Positions 1 through 11,494 of a stretch of 64,000 nt of DNA are shown here, in pieces. The DNA comes from Rhodoferax ferrireducens (GTDB lineage Bacteria > Pseudomonadota > Gammaproteobacteria > Burkholderiales > Burkholderiaceae_C): NCBI RefSeq assembly GCF_003347515.1, contig NZ_QEII01000315.1:1-64000 (forward strand), in the 5' to 3' direction. The notes under the pieces were generated by a model. It was not told the origin of the DNA and searched no databases. It was given only the letters and a program-made list of their open reading frames with translations. The position numbers and the translations under genes were made by a program. The stretch's first letter is position 1. The number at the start of each line of letters is the position of its first letter.

Positions 1-407
1 GGCCGGTCCCTGTTTGCCGCCGTCTTTCCTGAGTTCATCGCCCGCGAAAAACCGGGCCAGCGAGGGACTGGCTGTCAAGGAAGAAGCGCAGGGTTGGTGC
101 GGCCCACAGCACAGCGAGGACTCGGCCCTGCGCGCCTTGACGGCCTGGCACTGCGGGCTACGGTCGCGGGAGAAAGCGATGGACTTGGGGAAAGACGAAC
201 AGCGGCCGATGGGCCAGGGAATGCGCCGAAACCAACGCCGCGCGGCGAGCGCCCTTGCGTGCCAGCAGCACGCCTAGATGGATGGCTGTTGGCCGATCAG
301 GCGTAGCCTGTTCGGCGACTGTCAGGGGCGACAAGCAAAGCGCGGCGGGGTGGGCGTCAGCCGACCCCTGGAGGCAAGCGCAGCGCGCAGCGGCATACGG
401 ACGAAGC
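1..407. other. no gene seen (left flank of the mobile element)
   Basis: I see no credible coding region here. Every open frame is short, GC-driven and shows no recognisable domain or good ribosome binding site. The stretch lies downstream of the radC gene on the minus strand, and the integrated element probably continues to the left beyond the window. Confidence 0.4.
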
Positions 408-429
408 AAAAAAGGGGGCGATGCCCCCT
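408..429 (-). terminator. rho-independent terminator of radC
   Basis: On the minus strand a 7-bp stem AGGGGGC/GCCCCCT (413-419 with 423-429, three-base loop) is followed by six T residues (complement of 408-413). It begins five bases after the radC stop codon, the expected position for an intrinsic terminator. Confidence 0.8.
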
Positions 430-433
430 CGGG

Positions 434-940
434 CTACAGCAGCCCGCGTTCCGCGAAACTCATGACGTCGTTGCCTGCCACGATCAGGTGATCCAACACC
501 CGCACGTCCACCAGCGACAGCGCGGTTTTCAGCGTCTGGGTCAACACCTCGTCCGCCCGTGACGGCTCGGCGACACCCGACGGATGGTTATGACAAAAAA
601 TCAATGCCGCAGCATTGAACGCGAGAGATTCCTTGACCACCTCGCGCGGATACACCGATGCCTGACTCACCGTGCCCCGGAACAGCTCGACGTATTCGAT
701 CAGGCGGTTCTGCGCATCGAGCATCAGCACCGCGAACACCTCGTGCTCCAAACCACCCAGTTTGACGCGCAGGAAGTCGCGCACCGCCTGCGGCGAAGTC
801 AGAACCTCACGCCCGCGCAGTTGCGCACCCAGTAGCCGCTGAGCGGCCTGCAACACCTCGTCGGCATTGGCCGGACGGTAGTCGCCCGCGACATCGCGAA
901 CGAGAAGGGAAGAATCGAGGGAAAGAGAAAGTTGCGACAT
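434..940 (-). CDS. radC: RadC-family JAB/MPN domain protein
   Basis: A 168-residue RadC-like protein, shorter than housekeeping RadC (about 220), as is usual for copies on genomic islands and integrative conjugative elements. The C-terminal JAB/MPN metalloprotease-like core is visible: the motif HNHPSGVAEPSRAD supplies the H-x-H…S…D metal-binding pattern, preceded by a conserved glutamate in the FAVLMLDAQNRLIE region. I chose the ATG at 940 (MSQLSLSL) over an in-frame start at 991, because homologous island copies begin there and the extension is unlike protein. The role of RadC is unsettled; a direct DNA-repair function is doubted. A strong terminator follows at 408-429. Its position opposite a tyrosine recombinase, with cargo between, recalls Tn4371-like elements (inference from memory). 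Confidence 0.88.
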   Translation of the reverse strand: MSQLSLSLDSSLLVRDVAGDYRPANADEVLQAAQRLLGAQLRGREVLTSPQAVRDFLRVKLGGLEHEVFAVLMLDAQNRLIEYVELFRGTVSQASVYPREVVKESLAFNAAALIFCHNHPSGVAEPSRADEVLTQTLKTALSLVDVRVLDHLIVAGNDVMSFAERGLL

Positions 941-1313
941 GGTCTGCTCCGGTCTGTAGCGGGCGGAATTGCCCGAGACCGGCTCCAGCACGCTGCAGCG
1001 CAGTTGTCAGGGTTCGCAGACGGCCGCAAGGACGCAAGCGCACACCGTGCGCGCAGACCTTGACAGCGAGAACAGCGTGGTACGTTGAAGGGAACAGCAA
1101 GGCCACCCCACCACCACACTCCGTTGCCCTTGGGCAAGCGACGCGCGCAGGCCGGGAACGCAGAGACGGCCGGAGGTGTCAGGGATCAAAGCCGCATGGC
1201 CGCGACTCGGCACGAGGCGCGGGGCAACGCCCGCGAGCCCGACGGCGGCACGCCGGGACACCAAGTCGCTTATGACAGAAAGTAAGTGACCCAATGGCAT
1301 AAATGAGCCACAA
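941..1313. other. intergenic region without a gene
   Basis: About 370 bases between the divergent radC and antitoxin genes. No reading frame has a domain or a plausible ribosome binding site. It must hold the radC promoter (minus strand) and probably the antitoxin promoter near its right end, but I could not pick a convincing -35/-10 pair. Confidence 0.4.
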
Positions 1314-1323
1314 TGTAGCTACA
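1314..1323. promoter_or_regulatory. palindrome, likely antitoxin operator
   Basis: A perfect 10-bp palindrome TGTAGCTACA lies 19 bases upstream of the RelB/DinJ-type start codon. Antitoxins with ribbon-helix-helix N-termini usually bind such short palindromes to repress their own operon, so this is a likely operator. The assignment is inferred from position and symmetry. Confidence 0.5.
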
Positions 1324-1342
1324 AACACTTAGAGCATATGCA

Positions 1343-1534
1343 ATGGCGAGTACCGATGTCGTTCGTGCCCGGATTGACGGGCATATCAAAGAGGAAGCGA
1401 CCAGCGTCCTGGCCGAAATGGGTCTATCCGTTTCGGATGCCATCCGAATGCTGCTAACCCGCATCGCGGCGGACAAAGCGCTGCCATTTGACGTCAATCG
1501 TGTGCTCCCCCATTCGGATCGGAAGACACCATGA
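1343..1534 (+). CDS. RelB/DinJ-family antitoxin, C-terminally truncated
   Basis: Sixty-three residues with the ribbon-helix-helix DNA-binding half of RelB/DinJ antitoxins: STDVVRARIDGHIKEEA, then GLSVSDAIRMLLTRIAADKALPFDV. Intact family members continue for 20-30 residues after the LPFDV segment, and those residues wrap the partner toxin. Here the frame ends with an unrelated tail, NRVLPHSDRKTP. No YafQ/RelE toxin gene follows; the next gene is an ABC-3C component. The likely reading is that insertion of the defence cargo cut the end of a toxin-antitoxin operon and removed the toxin. DNA binding at 1314-1323 could still work. A full-length divergent variant is possible but less likely. Confidence 0.75.
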   Translation: MASTDVVRARIDGHIKEEATSVLAEMGLSVSDAIRMLLTRIAADKALPFDVNRVLPHSDRKTP

Positions 1535-1577
1535 GGTTGTGCCTGAAGACATTTAACCGTTCTTGGCTCTGAACCGC

Positions 1578-2498
1578 ATGGATCGCGTACAACAGCTCAG
1601 CTACGAAAAAGATTTCCGAATCATCTTCCTTGAAGCCAAGGGAGACGGATTTCAGCGCCTATTCGAAAAACTGATGGCGAAGGCCCACCCTAACGATTTC
1701 ATGGCCTGCCGACCATGGGGCAATGTCGGCGACCGGAAAAACGATGGATACCTGCCATCGGCCCGAATCCTATTTCAGAGCTATGCGCCCAATGAGTTGA
1801 GTGCTGCCGAAGCCATCAAGAAGATCAATGAGGATTTCGAGGGCGCACAAGAGCATTGGGAAGAATATTTTGATGAATGGACCTTTGTCCACAATGCACC
1901 CGATGGGCGCCTGGGTCCCCACGTCATCGAAGCGCTGGCCAAGCTCGCGCAAGAAAACCCAAAGATCAAGATCGGCCACTGCGGCTGGGAAGAAATGCTG
2001 GCGAAGTTTCGCCAGCTCAACCTGCAGGATCTCGAATCCTGGTTCGGCCCATCGCTGACCATGGAAGCAAACGTCAATCTGGGCTATAGCGATTTGATGG
2101 CCGTACTCACACATATCAGCGTTGCCCCTGCGCCAGCAACGAGCGAAGTCAAGGACGTATCGCGAGGAAAGATCGAGGCAAACCTTCTGTCTCAGGTGGT
2201 CGCCGCTTTTTTGAAGATCGGTATGCAGAAGTCGCCGCTAGTCATGCAGTTCTTCGATAACTGGAAGAACCCCGTGTATGGCGAACAAATTGCCTCGGCC
2301 TTCAAGAGCCAATACGTGTCTCTGAGGGATGCGACACCCGCGCTTCATCCCGATGAAATCTTTGGACAACTTGAAACCTGGGCGGGGGGAGTCGTGAACA
2401 CGACACCCACCCACAAGGCGGCAGTGCTGGCGGTCATGGCTTACCTGTTCGACAAGTGCGAAATATTCGAAGACGCTCAAGCAGTGAGGTCAACATGA
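1578..2498 (+). CDS. ABC-three component (ABC-3C) system protein, nuclease-like N-terminus
   Basis: A 306-residue first gene of a three-gene set whose third gene is a DUF2326 ATPase, the layout of ABC-3C systems. These are predicted conflict or defence systems in which an SMC-like ATPase controls an effector. Residues 45-70 contain GDRKNDGY followed by ILFQSYAP, with a helix holding E30 before it; this resembles the E…GDxKxDG…QxK core of Mrr-like restriction-endonuclease folds, with the final lysine replaced by tyrosine. The C-terminal half (about 190-306) is helical and matches what I would expect of the ABC-3C C-terminal domain. The ATG at 1578 is preferred to an upstream TTG at 1563, although neither has a clear Shine-Dalgarno. 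The stop overlaps the next start (ATGA). Confidence 0.7.
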   Translation: MDRVQQLSYEKDFRIIFLEAKGDGFQRLFEKLMAKAHPNDFMACRPWGNVGDRKNDGYLPSARILFQSYAPNELSAAEAIKKINEDFEGAQEHWEEYFDEWTFVHNAPDGRLGPHVIEALAKLAQENPKIKIGHCGWEEMLAKFRQLNLQDLESWFGPSLTMEANVNLGYSDLMAVLTHISVAPAPATSEVKDVSRGKIEANLLSQVVAAFLKIGMQKSPLVMQFFDNWKNPVYGEQIASAFKSQYVSLRDATPALHPDEIFGQLETWAGGVVNTTPTHKAAVLAVMAYLFDKCEIFEDAQAVRST

Positions 2499-2746
2499 TC
2501 TTGCCGTCCAAGCATCTCCCGCAAGATCGCGCGCTGCTTACTGTGGGAGGTCATGTTCTGACTTTTCTCGCACGTCCCAAGACGGTCTCCGCACTGTGGG
2601 AAGAATTGAACCAACAGGACCAAGGGCTGGGTGCCACGCGTCCTCGGCGAATCACCTACGACTGGTTCGTGCTGGCGCTGGACCTGCTGTACTCCCTTGG
2701 AACCATTGAACTAGAAAGCGGCCTTGTTGCACGGAGGACAGCTTGA
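2495..2746 (+). CDS. ABC-3C system middle component (MC6-like)
   Basis: An 83-residue protein beginning MILPSKHLPQDRALLTVGG. It has the short two-part layout of ABC-3C middle components: an N-terminal segment followed by a winged-helix-like stretch (KTVSALWEEL … YDWFVLALDLLYSLGTIEL). The LPSKH opening and the YDWFxLALDLLY segment are what I associate with middle component family 6; that family number is from memory and less sure than the general call. It overlaps both neighbours: ATGA with the upstream gene, and its TGA lies inside the TTG start of the ATPase. The tight coupling implies fixed stoichiometry in one complex. Its ribosome binding site is GAGG at 2486. Confidence 0.72.
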   Translation: MILPSKHLPQDRALLTVGGHVLTFLARPKTVSALWEELNQQDQGLGATRPRRITYDWFVLALDLLYSLGTIELESGLVARRTA

Positions 2747-4464
2747 TCCATAACCTATTCAGCACGCTGCCCACCTTCAAGAATCTCGGTGACCTGAAGC
2801 CGGGTCTGAACGTGCTGCTGGCCCAAAAAACCGAGGGTTCAACCAGTAAGCAAACCCGCAATCGTGCAGGTAAAACCAGTTTTATTGAAGCTATTCATTT
2901 CCTGACGGGCTCGGAAGCCGGTCCTGACTCCATCTTCCGCACGCCAGAATTGGCCGAATACACCTTCGGCATGGATTTCGATTTGAAGGATGCGCGCACC
3001 GTCGTCGAGCGCAGTGGCAGTGCTAAAGCCAAGATCTACGTGACGACACCACCAGCGGCCAAGCGCAAACTGTCGGCAACCGATTGGGTCACGTTTCTCG
3101 GAGAGGAGATGTTCGGTTTGAGCAGCCTCGAAGCGGCAGGCAGCAAGCCCCCTTCATTCCGGTCACTGTTCGCCTACTTTGTGCGTCGCCAGATGAGCGG
3201 AGCATTCACCACACCGGAGAAGCAGGCCACTATGCAAGGAACAGGCGACATGCAAATGGCGCTGATGTTCCTCCTCGGGCTGGACTGGCAGATCGCGCGC
3301 GACTGGCAGGCCGTTCGCGATCGTGAAAAGACATTGGATGAGCTAAAAAAGGCAGCCGGTACGGGCGCATTCGGTTCGATCATCGGCAAGGCTGCTGACT
3401 TGCGCACGCAGTTGACCCTGCAGGAGGCCCGTCTCAAGAAACTTTATGCGGAAACCGAGTCCTTCCAGGTGTTGCCCGAATATCGGGAACTGGAAGTCGA
3501 AAGCGCCAAGCTGACACGCCAGCTCAATGAACTGGCCAATGCCAATACCATCGATTTCGCTGCCATCCGGGATCTCGAAGGCGCGCTGGCCTCCGAGATC
3601 CCTCCCGATCTGGAAGACCTGCAAGCGGTTTATCAGGAAGCCGGTGTTGCGCTTCCCGGTCTCGTGAAGCGCCGTTATGAGGATGTGAAGAGTTTTCATC
3701 AATCGGTGGTGCGCAACCGCAAGGACTACCTGTCTAGCGAACTCGAAGCGGCCAAGCTGCGCATCGAGCTTCGCGACAGCAAGAAGGCGCAACTCGACCA
3801 GCGCCGCGCGGAAATCATGGGCATTCTCAGGAGCCATGGCGCGCTGGACCAATTCCTCAAGTTGCAGGGAGAGCTAGGCCGTCTGGAATCAGAAGTGGAA
3901 TCGCTGCGGCAGCGGTTCGAAGCAGCGGAGCAGCTCGAAGGCACAAAAAACGAACTGGAAATCGAGCGCAACCGACTCACGATCCGACTGCGACGCGACT
4001 TTGCCGAACAGAATGACCGACTGGCCGAAGCCATCGTCGCCTTCGAGGAAACATCGCAGCGGCTCTACGAGTCGGCCGGCAGCATGACTGTCGACGAAAC
4101 CTCCAACGGCCCGATGTTCAAGTTTCCGATGCAGGGCCAGCGCAGCAAGGGCATCAAGAACATGCAGATCTTTTGCTTTGACATGATGCTGATGCGCTTG
4201 TGCGCCAAGCGTCAGATCGGTCCGCGTTTCCTGATCCATGACAGCCATCTGTTTGACGGCGTAGACGGTCGGCAAGTGATCAGTGCCTTGCGCCTTGGCT
4301 CGGAAATTTCGCAGGAACTTGGTTTTCAGTACATCGTGACGATGAACGAAGACGACGCCTTCAAAGAAACCATTGAGGGCTTCGATCTCAATGACCATGT
4401 GCTTACAACGCGCCTGACCGATGCCACGGAAGATGGTGGGATGTTTGGCATTCGGTTTGGTTGA
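2743..4464 (+). CDS. DUF2326 / ABC-3C SMC-like ATPase
   Basis: A 573-residue SMC/RecN-like protein. The N-terminal P-loop is at residues 38-46 (TRNRAGKTS), keeping GKT but with the first P-loop glycine replaced. Long charged coiled-coil stretches run roughly 180-440. The C-terminal domain, where DUF2326 sits, holds a hydrophobic strand ending LIHDSHLFD (497-505), the Walker-B-like site of this family, followed by YIVTMNEDD. It is the motor or sensor subunit of the three-gene ABC-3C set. Translation starts at TTG (2743) with a strong GGAGG five bases upstream (2733-2737), and the start overlaps the stop of the middle component. The specific threat sensed by this subtype is unknown. Confidence 0.82.
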   Translation: MIHNLFSTLPTFKNLGDLKPGLNVLLAQKTEGSTSKQTRNRAGKTSFIEAIHFLTGSEAGPDSIFRTPELAEYTFGMDFDLKDARTVVERSGSAKAKIYVTTPPAAKRKLSATDWVTFLGEEMFGLSSLEAAGSKPPSFRSLFAYFVRRQMSGAFTTPEKQATMQGTGDMQMALMFLLGLDWQIARDWQAVRDREKTLDELKKAAGTGAFGSIIGKAADLRTQLTLQEARLKKLYAETESFQVLPEYRELEVESAKLTRQLNELANANTIDFAAIRDLEGALASEIPPDLEDLQAVYQEAGVALPGLVKRRYEDVKSFHQSVVRNRKDYLSSELEAAKLRIELRDSKKAQLDQRRAEIMGILRSHGALDQFLKLQGELGRLESEVESLRQRFEAAEQLEGTKNELEIERNRLTIRLRRDFAEQNDRLAEAIVAFEETSQRLYESAGSMTVDETSNGPMFKFPMQGQRSKGIKNMQIFCFDMMLMRLCAKRQIGPRFLIHDSHLFDGVDGRQVISALRLGSEISQELGFQYIVTMNEDDAFKETIEGFDLNDHVLTTRLTDATEDGGMFGIRFG

Positions 4465-4478
4465 AGAGGAATATCCAC

Positions 4479-4640
4479 TTGAAGCCCCAGCTATTCACGC
4501 AAAAAATTATTGTCGCAATCAGCGAATTTCCAAGTTCGATGTCACGTCAATCTACCTTTCTCAAGGGGAACGCCTACCTCCAGGAACAGGACGCGGATAT
4601 CGAGAGCCCAGGCGATGCGCGTAGCGAGAGTTATCAATGA
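4479..4640 (+). CDS. unannotated small ORF, 53 residues
   Basis: The gap between the DUF2326 ATPase and the DUF2130 gene is filled by a single open frame of 53 codons. It starts at TTG 4479, eight bases after a good ribosome binding site (AAGAGGA, 4464-4470), and its stop overlaps the next start as ATGA at 4637-4640. The product begins MKPQLFTQKIIVAISEF and ends in an acidic, polar tail (EQDADIESPGDARSESYQ). I recognise no domain. The spacing on both sides argues for translation; the alternative is the remnant of a larger gene lost by deletion. Short length and a TTG start would make automatic annotation miss it. Confidence 0.45.
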   Translation: MKPQLFTQKIIVAISEFPSSMSRQSTFLKGNAYLQEQDADIESPGDARSESYQ

Positions 4641-5920
4641 CAGAACCAACAATTATCTGCCCGAATTGTAAGACTGAGATTCGGTTGACCGAGTCGCTCG
4701 CAGCTCCGCTGATTGCCGCAACGCGCCAACAGTATGAGCAGCAGCTCCTGCAAAAGGATGAAGAGGTTGCCAAACGCGAACAGAGCATTCGCGAGAAGGA
4801 AAAGCAGGTCATAGAGGCAAAACGCACTCTTGATGAACAAGTTGCGGATCAGGTAGCGGCACAATTAATAACTGAACGCACACGCGTAATAGCGGAAGAG
4901 GCTAAGAAGGCAAAACTCGCCAGTGCAGCGGAGCTTGACGCGAAGGCGCGTGAGCTTGTGGAACTGCAGGAAGTATTGAAGGTGCGTGACGAGAAGTTGG
5001 CCGAGGCTCAGAAAGCGCAGGCCGAGCTGATCAAGAAGCAACGAGAGCTGGACGATGCCAAGCGCGAATTGGAACTCACGGTTGAAAAGCGGGTGCAGGA
5101 CGGCCTAAGTGAAGTTCGCGCCGCGGCGAAACGAGAAGCTGAGGATGGGTTGAAGCTCAAGGTGATGGAGAAAGACCAGACCATTGCGTCGATGCAGCAG
5201 AAGATCGAAGAACTGAAGCAGAAGGCGGAGCAAGGCTCCCAGCAGATGCAAGGTGAAGTCCAGGAAATGGATCTTGAAAATCTGCTGCGCGCGAAGTTTC
5301 CGTTCGACTCCATTGAACCCGTCGCGAAAGGCGAATTTGGCGGCGATGTGCTGCAACGGGTGATCAGTCAGGCTGGTCAGCAAAGCGGAGCGATCCTCTG
5401 GGAGTCAAAGCGTACAAAAAACTGGAGCGACGGGTGGCTGACCAAGCTGCGTGATGATCAACGAACGGCCAAGGCTGAAATATCGGTTCTCGTGAGCCAA
5501 GTTCTTCCGAAGGGCGTCGAAGCCTTTGACGTGATTGATGGTGTCTGGGTGACCAATCCGCGGGCGGCACTGCCGGTGGCAACCGTACTTCGTCATACGT
5601 TGCTGCAGGTGAGTATGGCCCGCCAAGTCAACGAAGGACAGCAAACCAAGACGGAGATGGTGTACCAATATTTAACCGGCCCACGGTTTCGCCATCGCGT
5701 GGAAGCGATCGTGGAAGCCTTCTCGTCGATGCAGGAAGACTTGGACAAGGAACGCAAAGTCATCATGAAGCAATGGGCCAAACGCGAAGAGCAAATCGAG
5801 CGTGTCATGGGTGCCACGGTGGGAATGTATGGTGACCTGCAAGGCATAGCGGGGAAGACGTTGCAGGAAATTGAGGGCTTGAGCTTGGAAGCATTGCCGG
5901 GGCCTAGCGAAGAAACTTAA
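4637..5920 (+). CDS. DUF2130 domain protein, coiled coil plus putative nuclease domain
   Basis: A 427-residue protein. It opens with a half zinc-ribbon (PNCKTEI preceded by CP; one CxxC only). A long, highly charged coiled coil runs about 25-215, and the DUF2130 domain follows from about 220 to 400. In that domain D237 (GGDVLQRV) lies 19 residues before E256-x-K258 (LWESKRTKNW), the spacing of a PD-(D/E)XK nuclease core, so a DNA-cutting role is a reasonable inference. No function has been established that I know of. The gene overlaps the small ORF upstream and lies five bases before the SIR2 gene, so it is probably co-transcribed with the SIR2–HerA pair. Confidence 0.78.
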   Translation: MTEPTIICPNCKTEIRLTESLAAPLIAATRQQYEQQLLQKDEEVAKREQSIREKEKQVIEAKRTLDEQVADQVAAQLITERTRVIAEEAKKAKLASAAELDAKARELVELQEVLKVRDEKLAEAQKAQAELIKKQRELDDAKRELELTVEKRVQDGLSEVRAAAKREAEDGLKLKVMEKDQTIASMQQKIEELKQKAEQGSQQMQGEVQEMDLENLLRAKFPFDSIEPVAKGEFGGDVLQRVISQAGQQSGAILWESKRTKNWSDGWLTKLRDDQRTAKAEISVLVSQVLPKGVEAFDVIDGVWVTNPRAALPVATVLRHTLLQVSMARQVNEGQQTKTEMVYQYLTGPRFRHRVEAIVEAFSSMQEDLDKERKVIMKQWAKREEQIERVMGATVGMYGDLQGIAGKTLQEIEGLSLEALPGPSEET

Positions 5921-5925
5921 AGGAT

Positions 5926-7263
5926 ATGAATATCGTGACAAAAAACCAAAGCGCAAGCACTGCCCCGGTTCCGGTACCCGCCGCTGCCGCTGCACCGACA
6001 TCGGCAATCCCATTACCTGCGCTCCACGACGCAGCGCAGCAAGCAAGAAATCTGCGGCAGGTGCTTCAAGATGACAAGCAGCGTATCGGCTGTTTCCTTG
6101 GTGCAGGTTGCCCGCTTGGAATCTACGATGCGGCAGGAAAAAACAGTGTCGTGCTGATCCCTGCCGTCGTAGAACTTACGAAGCGTGTTGCCGCCGGGCT
6201 GCAGGCAAGCGACAGCGCCGTTGGATCAACATCAAAATTCAAGACAAATTGGGATGCATTGTGCGTGGAATGCAAACCAACCGATGGCAAAGATCCAACC
6301 GTTGAAGACGTGTTGACAGAACTACGTACTCTGGCCAATCGGCGCGGGAGTGCGGAAATTTTGGGGATGTCGAAGAAGGATTTGAGCGACCTCGACGACG
6401 AAGTCTGCGCACTGATCGCAACTGAGATGCGTAAGCCGTTACCCGCCTACCGCAGTTCATACAACCGCTTCGCATCGTGGATCGGTGGCGTTCACCGTGA
6501 TTCTCCAGCAGAAATATTTACGCCTAACTATGACCTGCTTTTTGAACAGGCGCTTGAACAGCATCCGCTGCCGCACTTCGATGGTTTTGTTGGTTCACGA
6601 GAGCCATGGTTCGACCTGGCATCGATAGAGCACGACGTAATTCCTGCCAGGTGGACGAGGCTGTGGAAGCTACACGGCTCCATCAATTGGGAGAAGAGCG
6701 AGGAAATCGTGAACGGGGCGAAGATCACGCGTGTTGTTCGCGTCACACGCGAGGCCGCAGCGGGCAAGGTAATGATCTTCCCATCGCATCTCAAGTACGA
6801 CCAAAGCCGCCGCATGCCATACCTCGCAATGCTCGATCGACTAAGAGCATTTTTCCACGGGAAGGATGCTCCCAGACTAGTTGTGTGCGGCTATTCCTTT
6901 CTCGACGATCACCTCAATGAAGTTTTGCTAGATGGACTGCGGGGCAACCGGAACGCTCAATGCTTCGCGCTGATGTATTCGGATCTCGGACAACATTCGA
7001 GGGTGGTCGATTACGCAGTAAAACAGAGCAACCTCACGGTTCTTGCTTGGGACGGAGCAGTCGTAGGAACTCGCGTGGGGCTCTACCGGCCCGGAACCAT
7101 TGGCGGCCACGAGCACACGCCGTGGCTGATGGAAGAAGCGGTGACCGGTGGCGATCCCAAAGAATTACAGCCGCGCAGCCGTCTCGGAGACTTCCACTAT
7201 TTTGGTCTTTTCCTCGAACAACTTTGCGGTGGGAGCAATCATGATGCGCAGCCCGTCGTCTAA
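5926..7263 (+). CDS. SIR2-family defence protein (SIR2–HerA system)
   Basis: A 445-residue SIR2-like protein. Nucleotide-binding and catalytic signatures are visible: GAG at 59-61 (CFLGAGC), the PNYD motif at 200-203, and LHGS at 249-252 supplying the conserved histidine (H250). The family cleaves NAD+, and in anti-phage systems such as SIR2–HerA infection-triggered NAD+ depletion stops phage growth. The HerA ATPase follows immediately with a 23-base overlap, the known partner arrangement. The N-terminus (residues 1-35) is Ala/Pro rich and probably disordered. The ribosome binding site AAGGA is closer than ideal to the ATG, so the true start could differ slightly. NADase activity is inferred from the retained motif residues. 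Confidence 0.88.
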   Translation: MNIVTKNQSASTAPVPVPAAAAAPTSAIPLPALHDAAQQARNLRQVLQDDKQRIGCFLGAGCPLGIYDAAGKNSVVLIPAVVELTKRVAAGLQASDSAVGSTSKFKTNWDALCVECKPTDGKDPTVEDVLTELRTLANRRGSAEILGMSKKDLSDLDDEVCALIATEMRKPLPAYRSSYNRFASWIGGVHRDSPAEIFTPNYDLLFEQALEQHPLPHFDGFVGSREPWFDLASIEHDVIPARWTRLWKLHGSINWEKSEEIVNGAKITRVVRVTREAAAGKVMIFPSHLKYDQSRRMPYLAMLDRLRAFFHGKDAPRLVVCGYSFLDDHLNEVLLDGLRGNRNAQCFALMYSDLGQHSRVVDYAVKQSNLTVLAWDGAVVGTRVGLYRPGTIGGHEHTPWLMEEAVTGGDPKELQPRSRLGDFHYFGLFLEQLCGGSNHDAQPVV

Positions 7264-9151
7264 TCCCGATCCTTCACGGCTCGGTTCCGTCGAGGATGTA
7301 AACGGTTCAAGCGTGAGCGTGAAGCTTGCGGAGAGCACTCCGGGCGGACTTCTATTTGTCAATGGTGAGGCATATCGTGTCGGACAAGTCGGGGGATTTG
7401 TCCGTATTCCATCAGGATACGTAGACCTCTATGGGGTGATCTCACAGGTTGGGGCCGGAGCGGCCCCTGGGCCACCGGAACTCGCCCCTCAGTTTGGCAA
7501 TCGATGGCTCAGGATTGAACTCGTCGGTCAAGGACGCCGCGGCACAAAATTTGAACGCGGTATCGCGCAGTACCCCTCCATCGGCGACTCTGTCCATGTC
7601 GTAACCGAATCGGACTTGAAAACTGTCTACGCGCCTGGAGACGAAGATGGCTATGTTGCCGTTGGGCGCGTCGCCAGCGCCGAGTCGATCCGTGCGTACC
7701 TCGACATGAACCGCTTGGTTAGCCGTCATTCTGCAGTAGTGGGAAGCACGGGCTCTGGGAAATCGAATGCCGTGGCGAATCTGCTTGGTGCTGTTTCTGA
7801 TCGAACTCTGTTCAAGTCCGCTCGCGTCGTATTATTTGATCTTCACGGCGAGTACGCGAAGGCGTTTGGTGATCAAGCCCGAGTATTTAGGGTTGGAGCG
7901 GATACCGCCGCAGGGGAGCGGGAACTTCATGTTCCATTTTGGGCGCTCACAGCGGAGGAGTTTATTTCGCTAGCCATGGGCCCCGTATCGGGGACGCCTC
8001 TGACGTTGCTACAAGAAAGGCTGTTGTCCGGCAAGAGAGCGTCGAAGGCGGGGGGTGTCCCCCATGGTTTGCCTGATCTCACTGTCACGGTGGATACTCC
8101 GTTACCATTCTCGGTGTATCAGCTCTGGCACGATTTGTACTCACTGCATTCTTCGACGCACAGTGTCAGTAAAAACCAAAATCAGACCGAAGCGACGCGA
8201 GCATATATTCAAGATGGCGCTCCTCCAATAAATGCGGTTGGCGATTCAGACAAGCTTGAGCGTCCTCGATTTCGTCCGCTCAAGGATGTAAAGGAAGATC
8301 CTGACAAGGTGTATGCAGGTCTTTATGGTGATCTGCCCCGCGCGCACCTTGATATTTTGGAGAGCAAGCTACGTGACCCCCGCATGCAGTTTCTCTTTCG
8401 CCCTGGCGAATGGGCGGTCGCAAAGGATGGCACAACCCAAGCTGATCTAGATGCATTACTTGCGGCGTGGATAGGGGCGGATGCACCCATTTCTGTCTTT
8501 GATTTGTCAGGCATTCCCACCGCAATCGTCGACGACCTTGTTGGGGCTGTCTTACGAATTCTGTATGACGCTGTGTTCTGGGGACGGCTGAAGCAGGAAG
8601 GCGGTCGGGAAAGGCCTTTACTTATCGTTATGGAAGAAGCGCACGTGTATCTCGGTGCTCAGTCAAAGAGTCGTGCAGCTACTGCGGCCCGGCGCATCGC
8701 GAAAGAGGGACGAAAATACGGGGTTGGGCTAATGCTAGTCAGTCAGCGTCCTTCTGAGGTTGACACAACGATCCTTTCACAGTGTGGCACGATCATCGCG
8801 TTGCGCCTCACCAATGATTCGGATCGCACTCAAGTCACGTCATGTGCGTCAGACAACCTCAAGGGCCTCTTCTCGATGCTCCCTGTTCTTCGTACTGGCG
8901 AAGCGTTGATCGTCGGAGAAGCAGTCAACATGCCGATACGCGCAATCATTGACCGTCCCCCGGAAGGCCGGCGACCTGATAGCGACGATCCGGTGGTCGT
9001 TGTACCAAAAGGAAATGATGGGAAGCGTATAAAGAGTGGGGGCTGGACTGAGCCGGTACAGAATGAAGACTACAAGCCTTTAGTTGAAGCTTGGCGTAAA
9101 CAAGATCCAACCGCCGGCGGTATAAAGCAGCCGGTGAAGCCCAAAGTTTGA
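7241..9151 (+). CDS. HerA-type hexameric ATPase/translocase (SIR2–HerA system)
   Basis: A 636-residue HerA/FtsK-clade ATPase. The N-terminal HAS-barrel (about 15-150) contains LLFVNGEAYRVGQVGGFVRI. Walker A is at 168-175 (GSTGSGKS) and Walker B at about 459-466 (LLIVMEEA, catalytic E465/E466); the SQRPSEVD and RLTND sensor and arginine-finger region follows. The ATG at 7241 is chosen over an upstream frame opening because GGGAG (7231-7235) lies just before it. The start is 23 bases inside the SIR2 gene, so the two are translationally coupled. In known systems HerA hexamers assemble with SIR2 oligomers into one large complex with ATPase, NADase and sometimes nuclease activities. Confidence 0.9.
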   Translation: MMRSPSSNPDPSRLGSVEDVNGSSVSVKLAESTPGGLLFVNGEAYRVGQVGGFVRIPSGYVDLYGVISQVGAGAAPGPPELAPQFGNRWLRIELVGQGRRGTKFERGIAQYPSIGDSVHVVTESDLKTVYAPGDEDGYVAVGRVASAESIRAYLDMNRLVSRHSAVVGSTGSGKSNAVANLLGAVSDRTLFKSARVVLFDLHGEYAKAFGDQARVFRVGADTAAGERELHVPFWALTAEEFISLAMGPVSGTPLTLLQERLLSGKRASKAGGVPHGLPDLTVTVDTPLPFSVYQLWHDLYSLHSSTHSVSKNQNQTEATRAYIQDGAPPINAVGDSDKLERPRFRPLKDVKEDPDKVYAGLYGDLPRAHLDILESKLRDPRMQFLFRPGEWAVAKDGTTQADLDALLAAWIGADAPISVFDLSGIPTAIVDDLVGAVLRILYDAVFWGRLKQEGGRERPLLIVMEEAHVYLGAQSKSRAATAARRIAKEGRKYGVGLMLVSQRPSEVDTTILSQCGTIIALRLTNDSDRTQVTSCASDNLKGLFSMLPVLRTGEALIVGEAVNMPIRAIIDRPPEGRRPDSDDPVVVVPKGNDGKRIKSGGWTEPVQNEDYKPLVEAWRKQDPTAGGIKQPVKPKV

Positions 9152-9175
9152 TTTACAACCGACGGAGACAATACT

Positions 9176-9385
9176 ATGGAACGTACACCAGTTTCTTCAA
9201 GCAATCTCAGCGCAGTTGGCTATGACGTAGATAGACAAGCCCTTGAAGTGGAATTTAAGAACGGAGCTGTGTATGAATACTCAGGAGTACCTGATGGCGA
9301 ACACGATGGGCTGATGAGCGCGGGCTCCAAGGGCACGTACTTTAACGCCAATATTAAAAATCGATATCCGTTTGTGAAGCTTTGA
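9176..9385 (+). CDS. KTSC domain protein
   Basis: A 69-residue protein matching the small KTSC-domain family: an N-terminal VSSSNLSAVGYD, then a beta hairpin VEFKNGAVYEYSGVP, and a C-terminal YFNANIKNRYPF. The family has no known function; some members are fused to or lie near nucleases, recombinases or defence genes. It starts 24 bases after the HerA stop with GGAG at 9163-9166, so it is probably the last gene of the SIR2–HerA transcript. The stretch is visibly more A/T rich than the flanking chromosome, in line with horizontal transfer. Confidence 0.8.
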   Translation: MERTPVSSSNLSAVGYDVDRQALEVEFKNGAVYEYSGVPDGEHDGLMSAGSKGTYFNANIKNRYPFVKL

Positions 9386-9417
9386 TCCTGCGAGGGATTT
9401 CATTCGCTAAATTTCTT

Positions 9418-9735
9418 TTACGCCGTTGGCACTGCGGGCGCAGCCAACGGCTGCACCGCCAGCCGCAGCCCCATCGCCTTGAGGATCGCCAGCAAGCTGT
9501 TGAGCGCCGGATTGCCCTTCGGAGAAAGCGTGCGATAAAGCTGGGTCGGGTTCAGATGCGCCTGTTCGGCCACCGCCTGAACGCCACCGAAGGCTTCGGC
9601 CATCTGACGCAGCACGATCAACAGTTCGGCCTGGTCGCCGTCTTCCAGAATGCCATTGACCACTTCCAGCGCGAACGTGGGGTCGTTGCGGTACAACTCG
9701 GCCATCGCATCGTCATGGGGTCTACTTCTCATCAT
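9418..9735 (-). CDS. higA: HigA-type antitoxin (XRE helix-turn-helix)
   Basis: About 105 residues from the ATG at 9735. The C-terminal helix-turn-helix reads AFGGVQAVAEQAHLNPTQLY followed by RTLSPKGNPALNSLLAILKAMGLRL, typical of the antitoxins paired with Gp49/HigB toxins. The start lies 14 bases inside the upstream toxin gene, giving the reversed (toxin-first) order characteristic of higBA. A second ATG at 9732 is equally possible. The antitoxin neutralises the toxin and represses the operon, probably at the inverted repeat 10065-10080. Confidence 0.85.
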   Translation of the reverse strand: MMRSRPHDDAMAELYRNDPTFALEVVNGILEDGDQAELLIVLRQMAEAFGGVQAVAEQAHLNPTQLYRTLSPKGNPALNSLLAILKAMGLRLAVQPLAAPAVPTA

Positions 9736-10063
9736 CTGATCTCCGTTGCCAGTCCTGCCAGTAATCCACTGCCCGAGCAATGTCCGCGTCCTGAGTCCTC
9801 TTGTCGCCGCCGCACAGCAGCAACACCGCACGCCGGCCCGACAAGGCGTAGTACACCCGGTAGCCCGGCCCCACATCGATGCGCAGTTCCCAAACGCCCT
9901 CGCGACAGAACTTGTGGTCACCGAAGTTGCCTTGCTCGATGCGAATGACGCGCCGTGCTACCGCAACCTTGGCCTGCCCGTCGCGTAACCGCTTCAGCCA
10001 GTCGATGTACAAGTCCTTCTGCTCACCGGGGCTCAGGTAGTGCTCAATCTCGTAGAGCGTCAT
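9722..10063 (-). CDS. higB: HigB/RelE-superfamily toxin (Gp49-like)
   Basis: A 113-residue protein of the phage-derived Gp49-like/HigB family. The conserved core is WLKRLRDGQAKVAVARRVIR, then GNFGDHKFCREGVWELRID, GPGYRVYYA and LLCGGDKRTQDADI. Members are ribosome-dependent mRNA interferases; the activity here is inferred from family. It precedes and overlaps its antitoxin. The pair lies between the recombinase and the SIR2–HerA operon, in the opposite orientation to the latter, and would help hold the element in the chromosome. Confidence 0.85.
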   Translation of the reverse strand: MTLYEIEHYLSPGEQKDLYIDWLKRLRDGQAKVAVARRVIRIEQGNFGDHKFCREGVWELRIDVGPGYRVYYALSGRRAVLLLCGGDKRTQDADIARAVDYWQDWQRRSDDEK

Positions 10064-10064
10064 T

Positions 10065-10080
10065 TTCGTCTATAAACGAA
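10065..10080. promoter_or_regulatory. inverted repeat at higBA promoter, likely operator
   Basis: TTCGT (10065-10069) and ACGAA (10076-10080) form an inverted repeat with a six-base spacer immediately before the toxin start codon. On the minus strand the spacer contains TATAGA, a -10-like hexamer only about five bases from the ATG, which would give a very short leader or a leaderless transcript. Binding by the HigA-type antitoxin is inferred from the position. Confidence 0.45.
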
Positions 10081-10086
10081 TAACAG

Positions 10087-11289
10087 TCAAGATGCAGAAA
10101 CCGGCACGGCAACCGTACCTGCCACCACCGACTTGCGCCTGTTCGCCACCAGTTCGGCGGCTTGCCGCACGGGGCCATCCTCGGTGTGGACATAGCGCAT
10201 GAACATCGCCACCGTCTTGTGCGCGGTGAGCATCATGCCGACCTTCACCGGAATGCCCGAGTTGGCGATGTCCGTGGCTGAACGATGGCGGATGCCGTGT
10301 GTGCCGACGTGCGCCACCCCAGCGGTCTTCAAGGCGCGGCTCCAGCCGTTGTAATACTCTCCGGTGGTCAGGTGCTTCATCCGGTCGCGCGGCGAGGGCA
10401 GCACGTAGAGCGACCCTTCGTAACGGGGTGCTGTCGAAAGCAGCCGATAGGCTTCCTCGCTTATGGGTTTGGACATGCCTCCGGTCTTGCTGTCGGGCCA
10501 GACCACGCGCCGCTGCTCCAAATCGACCCATGCCCATTCGAGCAGAACAATTTCGGAACGGCGGGCGGCGAACTCGAACTGCAAGCGAATCGCCAATGGG
10601 ATGACGCAGGACTCCAGCCCCTCGGCCTCCAACTGGTCAAGATGCCGGAACAGCTTGCCCATTTCCTCATCGCTGATGAGGTGTGTGGATTTTCCGGCAG
10701 GGAACATCGGAACATGGCGGCAGGGATTCGTACCATCAGTCCGATGCCCCCAGACCTCGGCCAGGTTGAACATCTTGCGCATGACGCTGAAGGTGCGGTT
10801 TGCATCGGCTGGCTTGTGGGCCATCTTCTTCATCATCGCCGCCACATCGGGCCGCTTCACGTCCTGAACCTTCATCCGCCCCAGGAGCGGGACGATGTTG
10901 CGGTCAATCACAGCCTGGTAGCCGTCCTGCGTGCTGGGCTTGTTGCGCTGCTTGGAGTAGTCCTCCATGAACTTCGTGCACAGTTCCTTGACCGTGGGTG
11001 CCTGACGCGCCTGTGCCTTGTCGCCGCCAGGGTCTCCGCCCCGGCGAACCTCGGCCAGCCAGTTCTGGGCCAGCGAGCGGGCCTGTTCGACGGTCAGTTC
11101 CCCGTACAAGCCCAAAGCGGGCTTGCGCCGCTCACCGGCATTCGTGCGGTACTGGAGCATGAACACCTTGCGACCTGCTGGTGTAATCTTGCACAGGAAG
11201 CCGGGCACCAGCGTATCGCGCAGTTCGACGGGCTGCGCCTGGGGTTGTGCCGCATCGACTGCGGACTTGGTGATCTTGATCTTGGCCAT
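10087..11289 (-). CDS. tyrosine recombinase / integrase of the mobile element
   Basis: A 400-residue tyrosine recombinase. The N-terminal arm-binding domain (1-95) has VELRDTLVPGFLCKITPAGR, a SAM-like core-binding domain covers about 98-195, and the catalytic domain covers 205-385. Catalytic residues are visible: R243 (ARRSEI), H331 and R334 (HGIR), H357 (TAHK) and the nucleophile Y366 (MRYVH). The ATG at 11289 (MAKIKITK) is preferred to a longer frame. It is the outermost element gene on the right, with only 180 bases to the ompA terminator, so the attachment site should lie in that interval. The int–cargo–radC arrangement resembles Tn4371-family elements. Confidence 0.92.
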   Translation of the reverse strand: MAKIKITKSAVDAAQPQAQPVELRDTLVPGFLCKITPAGRKVFMLQYRTNAGERRKPALGLYGELTVEQARSLAQNWLAEVRRGGDPGGDKAQARQAPTVKELCTKFMEDYSKQRNKPSTQDGYQAVIDRNIVPLLGRMKVQDVKRPDVAAMMKKMAHKPADANRTFSVMRKMFNLAEVWGHRTDGTNPCRHVPMFPAGKSTHLISDEEMGKLFRHLDQLEAEGLESCVIPLAIRLQFEFAARRSEIVLLEWAWVDLEQRRVVWPDSKTGGMSKPISEEAYRLLSTAPRYEGSLYVLPSPRDRMKHLTTGEYYNGWSRALKTAGVAHVGTHGIRHRSATDIANSGIPVKVGMMLTAHKTVAMFMRYVHTEDGPVRQAAELVANRRKSVVAGTVAVPVSAS

Positions 11290-11463
11290 GACGAATCCTA
11301 GAGAAACCCCGATTTCCAGGTGTCGGCTGGGAGCCAAGCGAAGGAAAAGCGGAGCGGGTTGCGGAATGCACCGGCATATGGTGAACCCGCTTGTTCCCTA
11401 GGGAAACTCGCTGTGGCGAGCCTCAGCGAACGTCAGCCAAATTCGGTGCTAACGTCATGGTGA
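11290..11463. other. right junction of the integrated element (attachment-site region)
   Basis: This interval separates the recombinase start from the ompA terminator and should contain the right attachment site, the recombinase arm sites and its promoter. A perfect 12-bp palindrome TTCCCTAGGGAA sits at 11394-11405. There is no tRNA gene here, so insertion does not seem to use a tRNA 3' end. The matching left repeat would lie outside the window, so the exact boundary cannot be set. Confidence 0.4.
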
Positions 11464-11466
11464 AAT

Positions 11467-11494
11467 AAAAAACCCCGCATGAGCGGGGTTTTTT
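11467..11494. terminator. bidirectional rho-independent terminator (ompA)
   Basis: A 12-bp perfect stem, AAAAAACCCCGC / GCGGGGTTTTTT, with the tetraloop ATGA. It is symmetrical, with a GC core flanked by A and T runs, so it can stop transcription from either side: ompA on the minus strand, or read-through on the plus strand. Confidence 0.9.

Follow-up and report, generated by a model that had tools for sequence, protein, structure and literature searches.

The stretch of DNA analysed here, 64,000 nucleotides of Rhodoferax ferrireducens (contig NZ_QEII01000315.1, positions 1 to 64,000; hereafter the window), carries five plus-strand genes packed head to tail that encode, in this order, a small open reading frame (ORF), a DUF2130 protein, a SIR2-like protein, a HerA-like ATPase and a KTSC protein, with spacings of -4, +5, -23 and +24 bases. 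The last three genes form the core of a predicted anti-phage system, with DUF2130 as an optional partner that recurs beside it. The small ORF (4479..4640, 53 amino acids, TTG start) overlaps the start of the DUF2130 gene by four bases, and its role is doubtful. It is followed by DUF2130 (4637..5920, 427 amino acids; Pfam PF09903, 4.7e-83), by the SIR2-like protein, a predicted NADase (5926..7263, 445 amino acids; Pfam SIR2_2, PF13289, 2.2e-14), by HerA (7241..9151, 636 amino acids from the ATG at 7241; Pfam PF01935, central domain, 7.2e-30) and by KTSC (9176..9385, 69 amino acids; Pfam PF13619, 1.1e-25). An initial annotation, made by a model from the letters alone, had described the same packing, and our coordinates and spacings agree with it. 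A scan for terminator-like sites, weak in itself (16 sites overall against a shuffle mean of 12.7), gave none on the plus strand from 1 to 9385, and the same scan placed a weak site 3′ of KTSC, at 9390-9407.

The SIR2–HerA–KTSC core

The best PADLOC models for the two central proteins are PDLC04094 for SIR2 (8.1e-110) and PDLC04105 for HerA (4.7e-152). The catalytic Asn and His of SIR2 are present, and N201, D203 and H250 are invariant among 10 aligned proteins. HerA carries the sequences GSTGSGKS (7742-7765) and MEEAH (8630-8644), its Walker A and Walker B-like motifs. The nearest solved chains are 8w9l for SIR2 (3.3e-78) and 8wiv for HerA (4e-183), and these relatives co-occur in the entries 8wld, 8woc, 8wod and 8wof. 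The HerA of Paenibacillus sp. 453mf is identical to 8wiv across 696 residues, and its locus (L140) shows the same order, SIR2 and then HerA, with KTSC present. There, however, KTSC is fused to HerA as residues 629-695, whereas it is a separate gene in the window, and the flanks of L140, roughly 8-10 kb on each side, contain no DUF2130. The KTSC protein of the window matches the C-terminal domain of the 8wiv HerA (E 3e-14), and the two are therefore counterparts, one encoded by a gene of its own and the other as part of HerA. By sequence, the SIR2, HerA and KTSC proteins all belong to the Paenibacillus 453mf (PDLC04094-PDLC04105) subfamily. The core of the window is most likely a SIR2–HerA system of the Paenibacillus sp. 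453mf type (8wiv, 8w9l, 8wld), for which NAD+ hydrolysis, oligomeric assembly and phage protection are predicted by analogy with these relatives.

The SIR2–HerA system called Nezha, known from E. coli and V. cholerae, is distant by sequence (SIR2 2e-7 and HerA 1e-30 against the entries 8j4u/8su9, which we take to be the E. coli SIR2–HerA proteins). It nevertheless combines a SIR2-like NADase with a HerA ATPase, as predicted here, and defence by V. cholerae Nezha is reported to need both the active-site residues of SIR2 and HerA (PMC11559045).

How constant this arrangement is was assessed by scanning a genome collection (84,980 species) with an alignment of 10 SIR2 proteins, which gave at least 595 stretches, at least 514 of them encoding relatives. 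All the 80-locus counts given below refer to the best 80 of these at least 514 relatives, chosen by similarity to the SIR2 of the window, and their percentages therefore lean towards the window's own clade. A HerA match was called complete when it reached residue 610 of the 667-residue query; this was the case in 75 of the 80 loci (including L115, where HerA is in pieces but was scored as complete), while four loci had an incomplete match and one had none. In L112, it is SIR2 that is broken. Among the 75 loci with complete HerA, KTSC is present in 74, as an adjacent gene in 72 and fused to HerA in two (L126 and L140). The only one without KTSC on the same strand, L092, has a KTSC-like match on the opposite strand. 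Plasmids gave a similar picture: KTSC follows HerA in all 10 loci examined among the 30 listed of 362 records, nine of them being annotated as SIR2, ATPase and KTSC in order and the unannotated tenth showing the same order by scan. SIR2–HerA–KTSC is thus the core, and KTSC is a near-obligate companion of HerA. The KTSC family is itself widespread, with members in 67 of 198 relative genomes, and the four top-scoring copies are those of the four genomes that bear the SIR2 subfamily of the window. KTSC had been regarded in the initial annotation as having no known role. This is not supported, as it corresponds to a HerA domain in a solved SIR2–HerA complex, and the coupling of HerA genes with a DNA-binding KTSC gene is already in print (PMC9503650).

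Between the window and its close relative L075, DUF2130, SIR2, HerA and KTSC are all under purifying selection, the ratios of nonsynonymous to synonymous change (dN/dS) being 0.055, 0.062, 0.037 and 0.098, respectively. For the small ORF the ratio is 0.206, from just 13 differences. We also considered this ORF as a conserved component and rejected it: tblastn over the loci was convincing only for the window's own copies and for L075 (87% over 53 amino acids), all other matches being at E 0.71 or worse.

DUF2130: predicted fold and position beside the core

The DUF2130 protein consists of a CxxC near its N-terminus, a long coiled coil at about residues 22-196, a PD-(D/E)XK-type core and a helical tail. 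Its putative catalytic motif is D-x18-E-S-K, formed by D237 (plus strand, 5345..5347) and by E256-S257-K258 (plus strand, 5402..5410), and D237, E256 and K258 are invariant in the 25 aligned proteins. The D, the E and the K were correctly recognised at the outset, but the spacing is x18 and not the x19 that had been proposed. In the structural model (mean predicted local distance difference test, pLDDT, 79), a mixed alpha/beta core spans about residues 209-332 and the motif is in register with it, the D standing just before a strand at 238-243 and the E and K at the end of a strand at 249-258. In a VIA comparison, residues 205-327 align with McrC (Z 9.3), Cdn1 (9.4), Hjc (8.9) and many restriction enzymes, the top row being Tk-TIP26 (Z 10.0), described as a TBP-interacting protein; all these Z values, at 10.0 or below, are little above the 7-8 typical of models without a clear match. 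On this modelled core we take DUF2130 to have a restriction-endonuclease-like fold and predict that it cleaves DNA, which is in line with the nuclease-like character first suggested for it.

DUF2130 genes were sought in the loci with a locus-built profile, accepting matches of at least 100 bits. Directly upstream of SIR2 and on the same strand, DUF2130 is found in 18 of 72 loci (eight were dropped, each having less than 1.3 kb upstream of the SIR2 frame), its stop falling between 66 bases into the SIR2 reading frame and 1 base ahead of the point where that frame opens. Same-strand copies also follow the core in six loci (L083, L109, L125, L130, L143 and L151), one of which, L083, has DUF2130 on both sides, so that these add five loci to the 18; with L137, where the downstream copy is on the opposite strand, DUF2130 is present in 24 of the 80 loci. 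All 24 same-strand genes are within about 0.5 kb of the core, out of about 1.07 Mb of flank searched across the 80 loci (582 kb upstream and 486 kb downstream), and no further same-strand DUF2130 was found in the rest of the 582 kb searched upstream. As this comparison of positions is made inside the same neighbourhoods, it allows for the clustering of genes in defence islands. It also needs no gene calls and replaced an earlier count by gene index (10 of 77 at position -1 on the same strand, 10 of 1108 two or more genes away), because shadow ORFs and overlaps had confused the simple gene caller. Together with the KTSC counts, these positions bear out the expectation that both genes neighbour SIR2–HerA more often than random cargo would.

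The base rate of DUF2130 is 34 of 198 relative genomes, with 36 of 369 genomes of the class above the family cut-off, and that of the window's SIR2 subfamily (above 300 bits) is four of 198. Two genomes have both, namely that of the window and G108, where DUF2130 is downstream of KTSC, and in each of them DUF2130 is beside the operon. On the SIR2 tree (this and the DUF2130 tree are quick trees), upstream DUF2130 occurs in 13 of the 19 members with known flank of the window's clade (window included) and in six of the 54 outside it, and at least nine changes in this character are forced by starred branches. The DUF2130 tree contains a supported clade of seven, window included, every member of which is upstream of SIR2. 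The same upstream slot is held by distant DUF2130 types, B in L078, L079 and L083 and A in L082, and L083 and L082 are joined on the SIR2 tree (support 93, not starred) despite their different DUF2130 types. Additionally, in the plasmid loci L016 and L171, DUF2130 is downstream of KTSC with an antisense gene in between. A literature search gave no pairing of DUF2130 with SIR2, HerA or KTSC among the matches listed, and the papers that name DUF2130 or COG4487 are, judged by title, without a defence topic.

HerA ATPases are also paired with nucleases in the HerA–NurA and HerA–DUF4297 systems. Compared with these, the predicted nuclease of the window is DUF2130, and SIR2 is present as well; neither NurA nor DUF4297 was matched in a Pfam scan of the 10 window proteins around HerA. 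The HerA–KTSC pairs of PMC9503650 that have an endoDNase in place of SIR2 likewise combine HerA with a separate KTSC gene and the idea of a nuclease, but sirtuin and endoDNase are described there as mutually exclusive, whereas the window has SIR2 together with a predicted nuclease.

Neighbouring genes and other partners of the core

Directly upstream of the small ORF, ending 14 bases before it, is a complete ABC-three-component system on the plus strand (1563..4464; PADLOC PDC-M68), which had been overlooked in the initial annotation, as had the integrase downstream. It comprises an effector with an ABC-3C C-terminal domain (CTD10 protein, 1563-2498, PF20275), a middle component (MC6, 2456-2746, PF20293) and a DUF2326 ATPase (2743-4464, PF10088), all on the same strand, and is probably a separate system. 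On the other side, a phage-type integrase (minus strand, 10087..11337; Phage_integrase, PF00589, 7.2e-18) marks the right end of a genomic island, and genes for an OmpA-family protein, gyrase A and a class-V aminotransferase, which are chromosomal, lie beyond it. A RelE-type toxin (HI1419 type) and an HI1420-type antidote are encoded between KTSC and the integrase (9418-10063, minus strand). A single unbroken block of 11.4 kb is common to L075 and the window (122-11479 in the window, 93% identity), and the island is also shared, in pieces, by L076 and L081; because of this sharing, continuous in one case and piecemeal in the others, the locus is very likely a mobile island.

Other genes adjoin the core elsewhere. 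A family of 343 amino acids (for example, L146:13312-14343) is encoded downstream of KTSC in 14 of the 80 loci, as the next frame in 13 and about 2.2 kb further on in L129, and D-x15-E-C-K is invariant in the eight proteins compared. Searches with two members of the family gave no match in Pfam at E 0.05 and none in PADLOC at E 1; the sole NCBIfam row (0.012, 15 of 325 bits) was taken as chance, the profile search of the PDB gave one row at 0.76, and the match of its profile with DUF2130 was not significant. As a proven nuclease the family was rejected, for its model is too weak (pLDDT 46) and only the motif speaks for it; because the fold is not predictable, the nuclease label rests on that motif. 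DUF2130 and this family, present in 24 and 14 of the 80 loci, co-occur in none, where 4.2 would be expected. Zero overlap would have a probability of 0.004 for independent loci, but these are not independent, and the apparent mutual exclusion is suggestive only.

L088 and L117 carry, in sequence, genes for a DrmD-like helicase, DUF2130, SIR2, HerA, KTSC and a type III-like Mod methylase. DUF2130 is missing from this order in L099 and L111, and the helicase is missing in L100, at a contig edge; the arrangement is less tight in L097 and L155. In L062 and L063, which have no SIR2, the helicase, DUF2130 and Mod genes enclose a different ATPase. As inner cassette these loci have SIR2–HerA–KTSC, an OLD-like gene or a different ATPase, and the outer genes are not all present in every locus. 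The DrmD-like, DUF2130 and Mod genes, a combination absent from the window, look like a shell with exchangeable inner cassettes. Finally, in L131 (4984-5952) a CAP12/Pycsar-type TIR protein abuts SIR2, upstream of SIR2–HerA–KTSC.

Possible roles of DUF2130 and competing explanations

On balance, and with modest confidence, we favour the explanation that the window encodes a three-gene, Nezha-like SIR2–HerA–KTSC anti-phage NADase to which DUF2130 is added as an accessory nuclease. HerA would form a hexameric ATPase or translocase, with its KTSC part made as a separate subunit, and would assemble with SIR2 into a complex that, on infection, would hydrolyse NAD+ and stop the phage, as its relatives suggest. 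DUF2130, probably made from the same transcript as the core, would by means of its coiled coil and its PD-(D/E)XK domain add DNA cleavage to the NAD+ response in those loci where it is kept, possibly cutting DNA engaged by HerA and possibly in contact with the complex.

Several observations weigh against this explanation. The NCBIfam antiphage equivalog cut-offs (NF042942, NF042943 and NF042944) were missed, with scores of 50.7 of 500, 174.8 of 800 and 233.9 of 850, the first being that of SIR2 and the last that of HerA. On the structural side, to the modest VIA scores described above are added a predicted template modelling score (pTM) of 0.37 for the DUF2130 model and a Foldseek search with this model that gave no match below E 0.001, the best row (E 5e-3) being an unrelated-looking protein and the second a SPARDA assembly. 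In 54 of the 72 loci the position directly upstream of SIR2 is without DUF2130, which is present in none of the 13 viral loci and has been deleted in L076 (Aeromonas rivuli) and L081 (Hydrogenophaga intermedia), where SIR2, HerA and KTSC are kept; both match the window to 4460 and resume from 5865 or 5868, having lost the small ORF and almost the whole of DUF2130. What is left is a scar of 53-56 bases of the DUF2130 3′ end before SIR2 (L076 9926-9940, and at the same place in L081). Over 19 loci, the DUF2130 and SIR2 distances correlate with a rho of 0.137, and 341 of 2000 permutations were as high, in a test weakened by the trimming of the DUF2130 rows of L078 and L079 to about 105 residues. 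Such a lack of correlation would be expected if DUF2130 moved independently, and co-inheritance of DUF2130 with SIR2, having no significant correlation over these loci, was discarded.

Elsewhere, moreover, DUF2130 adjoins Gabija-like, Septu-like, OLD-like, DrmD-like, type I and type III genes. Nine of 10 proteins at or near it (hand-picked, not random) match PADLOC at E 1e-4, the models being PtuA, PDC-S22, DrmD, OLD, OLD/AriA, AriA, HsdR, a type III methylase and, weakly, LmuB. The OLD protein of L062 and the LmuB-like protein of L063 are one small gene away from DUF2130, and it is the protein of L074 that has no PADLOC match. On an Aliarcobacter plasmid (L170, 4995-10201), DUF2130 is followed after 1 base by the gene of an annotated ATP-dependent endonuclease, itself overlapping a UvrD helicase gene; the two form a Gabija-like pair. 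As DUF2130 neighbours these other defence genes, it is a promiscuous defence-associated gene and not private to SIR2–HerA. The idea of a larger, fixed five-gene unit is consequently not supported: DUF2130 recurs beside SIR2–HerA–KTSC as an optional partner, and the small ORF is not conserved.

From these same data, it could be argued that DUF2130, as a defence gene or cassette in its own right, merely hitch-hikes beside the operon and that it and SIR2–HerA–KTSC act separately. That its deletion in L076 and L081 leaves the core in place would fit this explanation, as would its occurrence in 32 of the 34 DUF2130-bearing relative genomes without the window's SIR2 subfamily, and beside other defence genes or, by annotation, with no recognisable adjoining defence partner (L168 and L172). 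Nevertheless, we regard it as somewhat unlikely, as DUF2130 is confined, within the flanks of the 80 SIR2 loci, to the immediate neighbourhood of the core, the copy in the window belongs to a supported clade whose seven members are all upstream of SIR2, and types A and B have come to occupy the same slot.

It is improbable, in our opinion, that DUF2130, rather than being an attacker, is an RmuC-like nuclease with a housekeeping or guard function, processing DNA ends or reducing the harm done to the host once the system is triggered. RmuC proteins have a coiled coil followed by a PD-(D/E)XK domain, the layout also seen in the DUF2130 model, and in L123 (8481-9983) an RmuC gene is directly upstream of SIR2, in the slot that DUF2130 holds elsewhere. 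However, this is a single case of a common gene (15 of 16 relatives), and the profile comparison of DUF2130 with RmuC was not significant (hhalign against eight RmuC proteins, probability 0.6%), nor did the Pfam scan at E 0.01 give a PF02646 (RmuC) row for DUF2130, so that its identification as RmuC is not supported. Least of all do we expect the whole run from 1563 to 9385, ABC-three-component genes included, to be one defence system: it is on one strand throughout, 14 bases separate the ABC ATPase from the small ORF, with no plus-strand terminator-like site between them in the weak scan, and L075 preserves its order, as do L076 and L081 apart from the absence of DUF2130 and the small ORF, but the ABC genes are matched in only these three of the 80 loci, all in the window's closest group, and correspond to a separate PADLOC candidate system.

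The accessory-nuclease explanation may tentatively be extended to an NADase motor with a nuclease slot. In that case, interchangeable PD-(D/E)XK-type proteins, either DUF2130 (two distant lineages, mostly upstream) or the 343-amino-acid family downstream, would occupy the slot, HerA would serve both SIR2 and the nuclease, and DUF2130 would be a general swap-in for several defence ATPases. If this is true, HerA would trigger the loss of NAD+ via SIR2 and feed DNA to the plugged-in nuclease, and DUF2130 would provide a link to different defence ATPases, for instance between the DrmD-like helicase and the Mod methylase.

KTSC, to which the available parts of the literature otherwise ascribe only predicted DNA or RNA binding, gains a defined place as a near-obligate component, split off or fused, in one branch of the SIR2–HerA systems, and its role is thereby open to study in an already solved complex. 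A second, unnamed family, nuclease-like by its motif, is revealed at the same operon. DUF2130, scarcely named in the literature searched, emerges as a recurrent, predicted accessory nuclease of defence operons, and the natural loci with and without it form ready-made pairs in which the contribution of a second enzyme to an NAD+-depleting defence can be examined.

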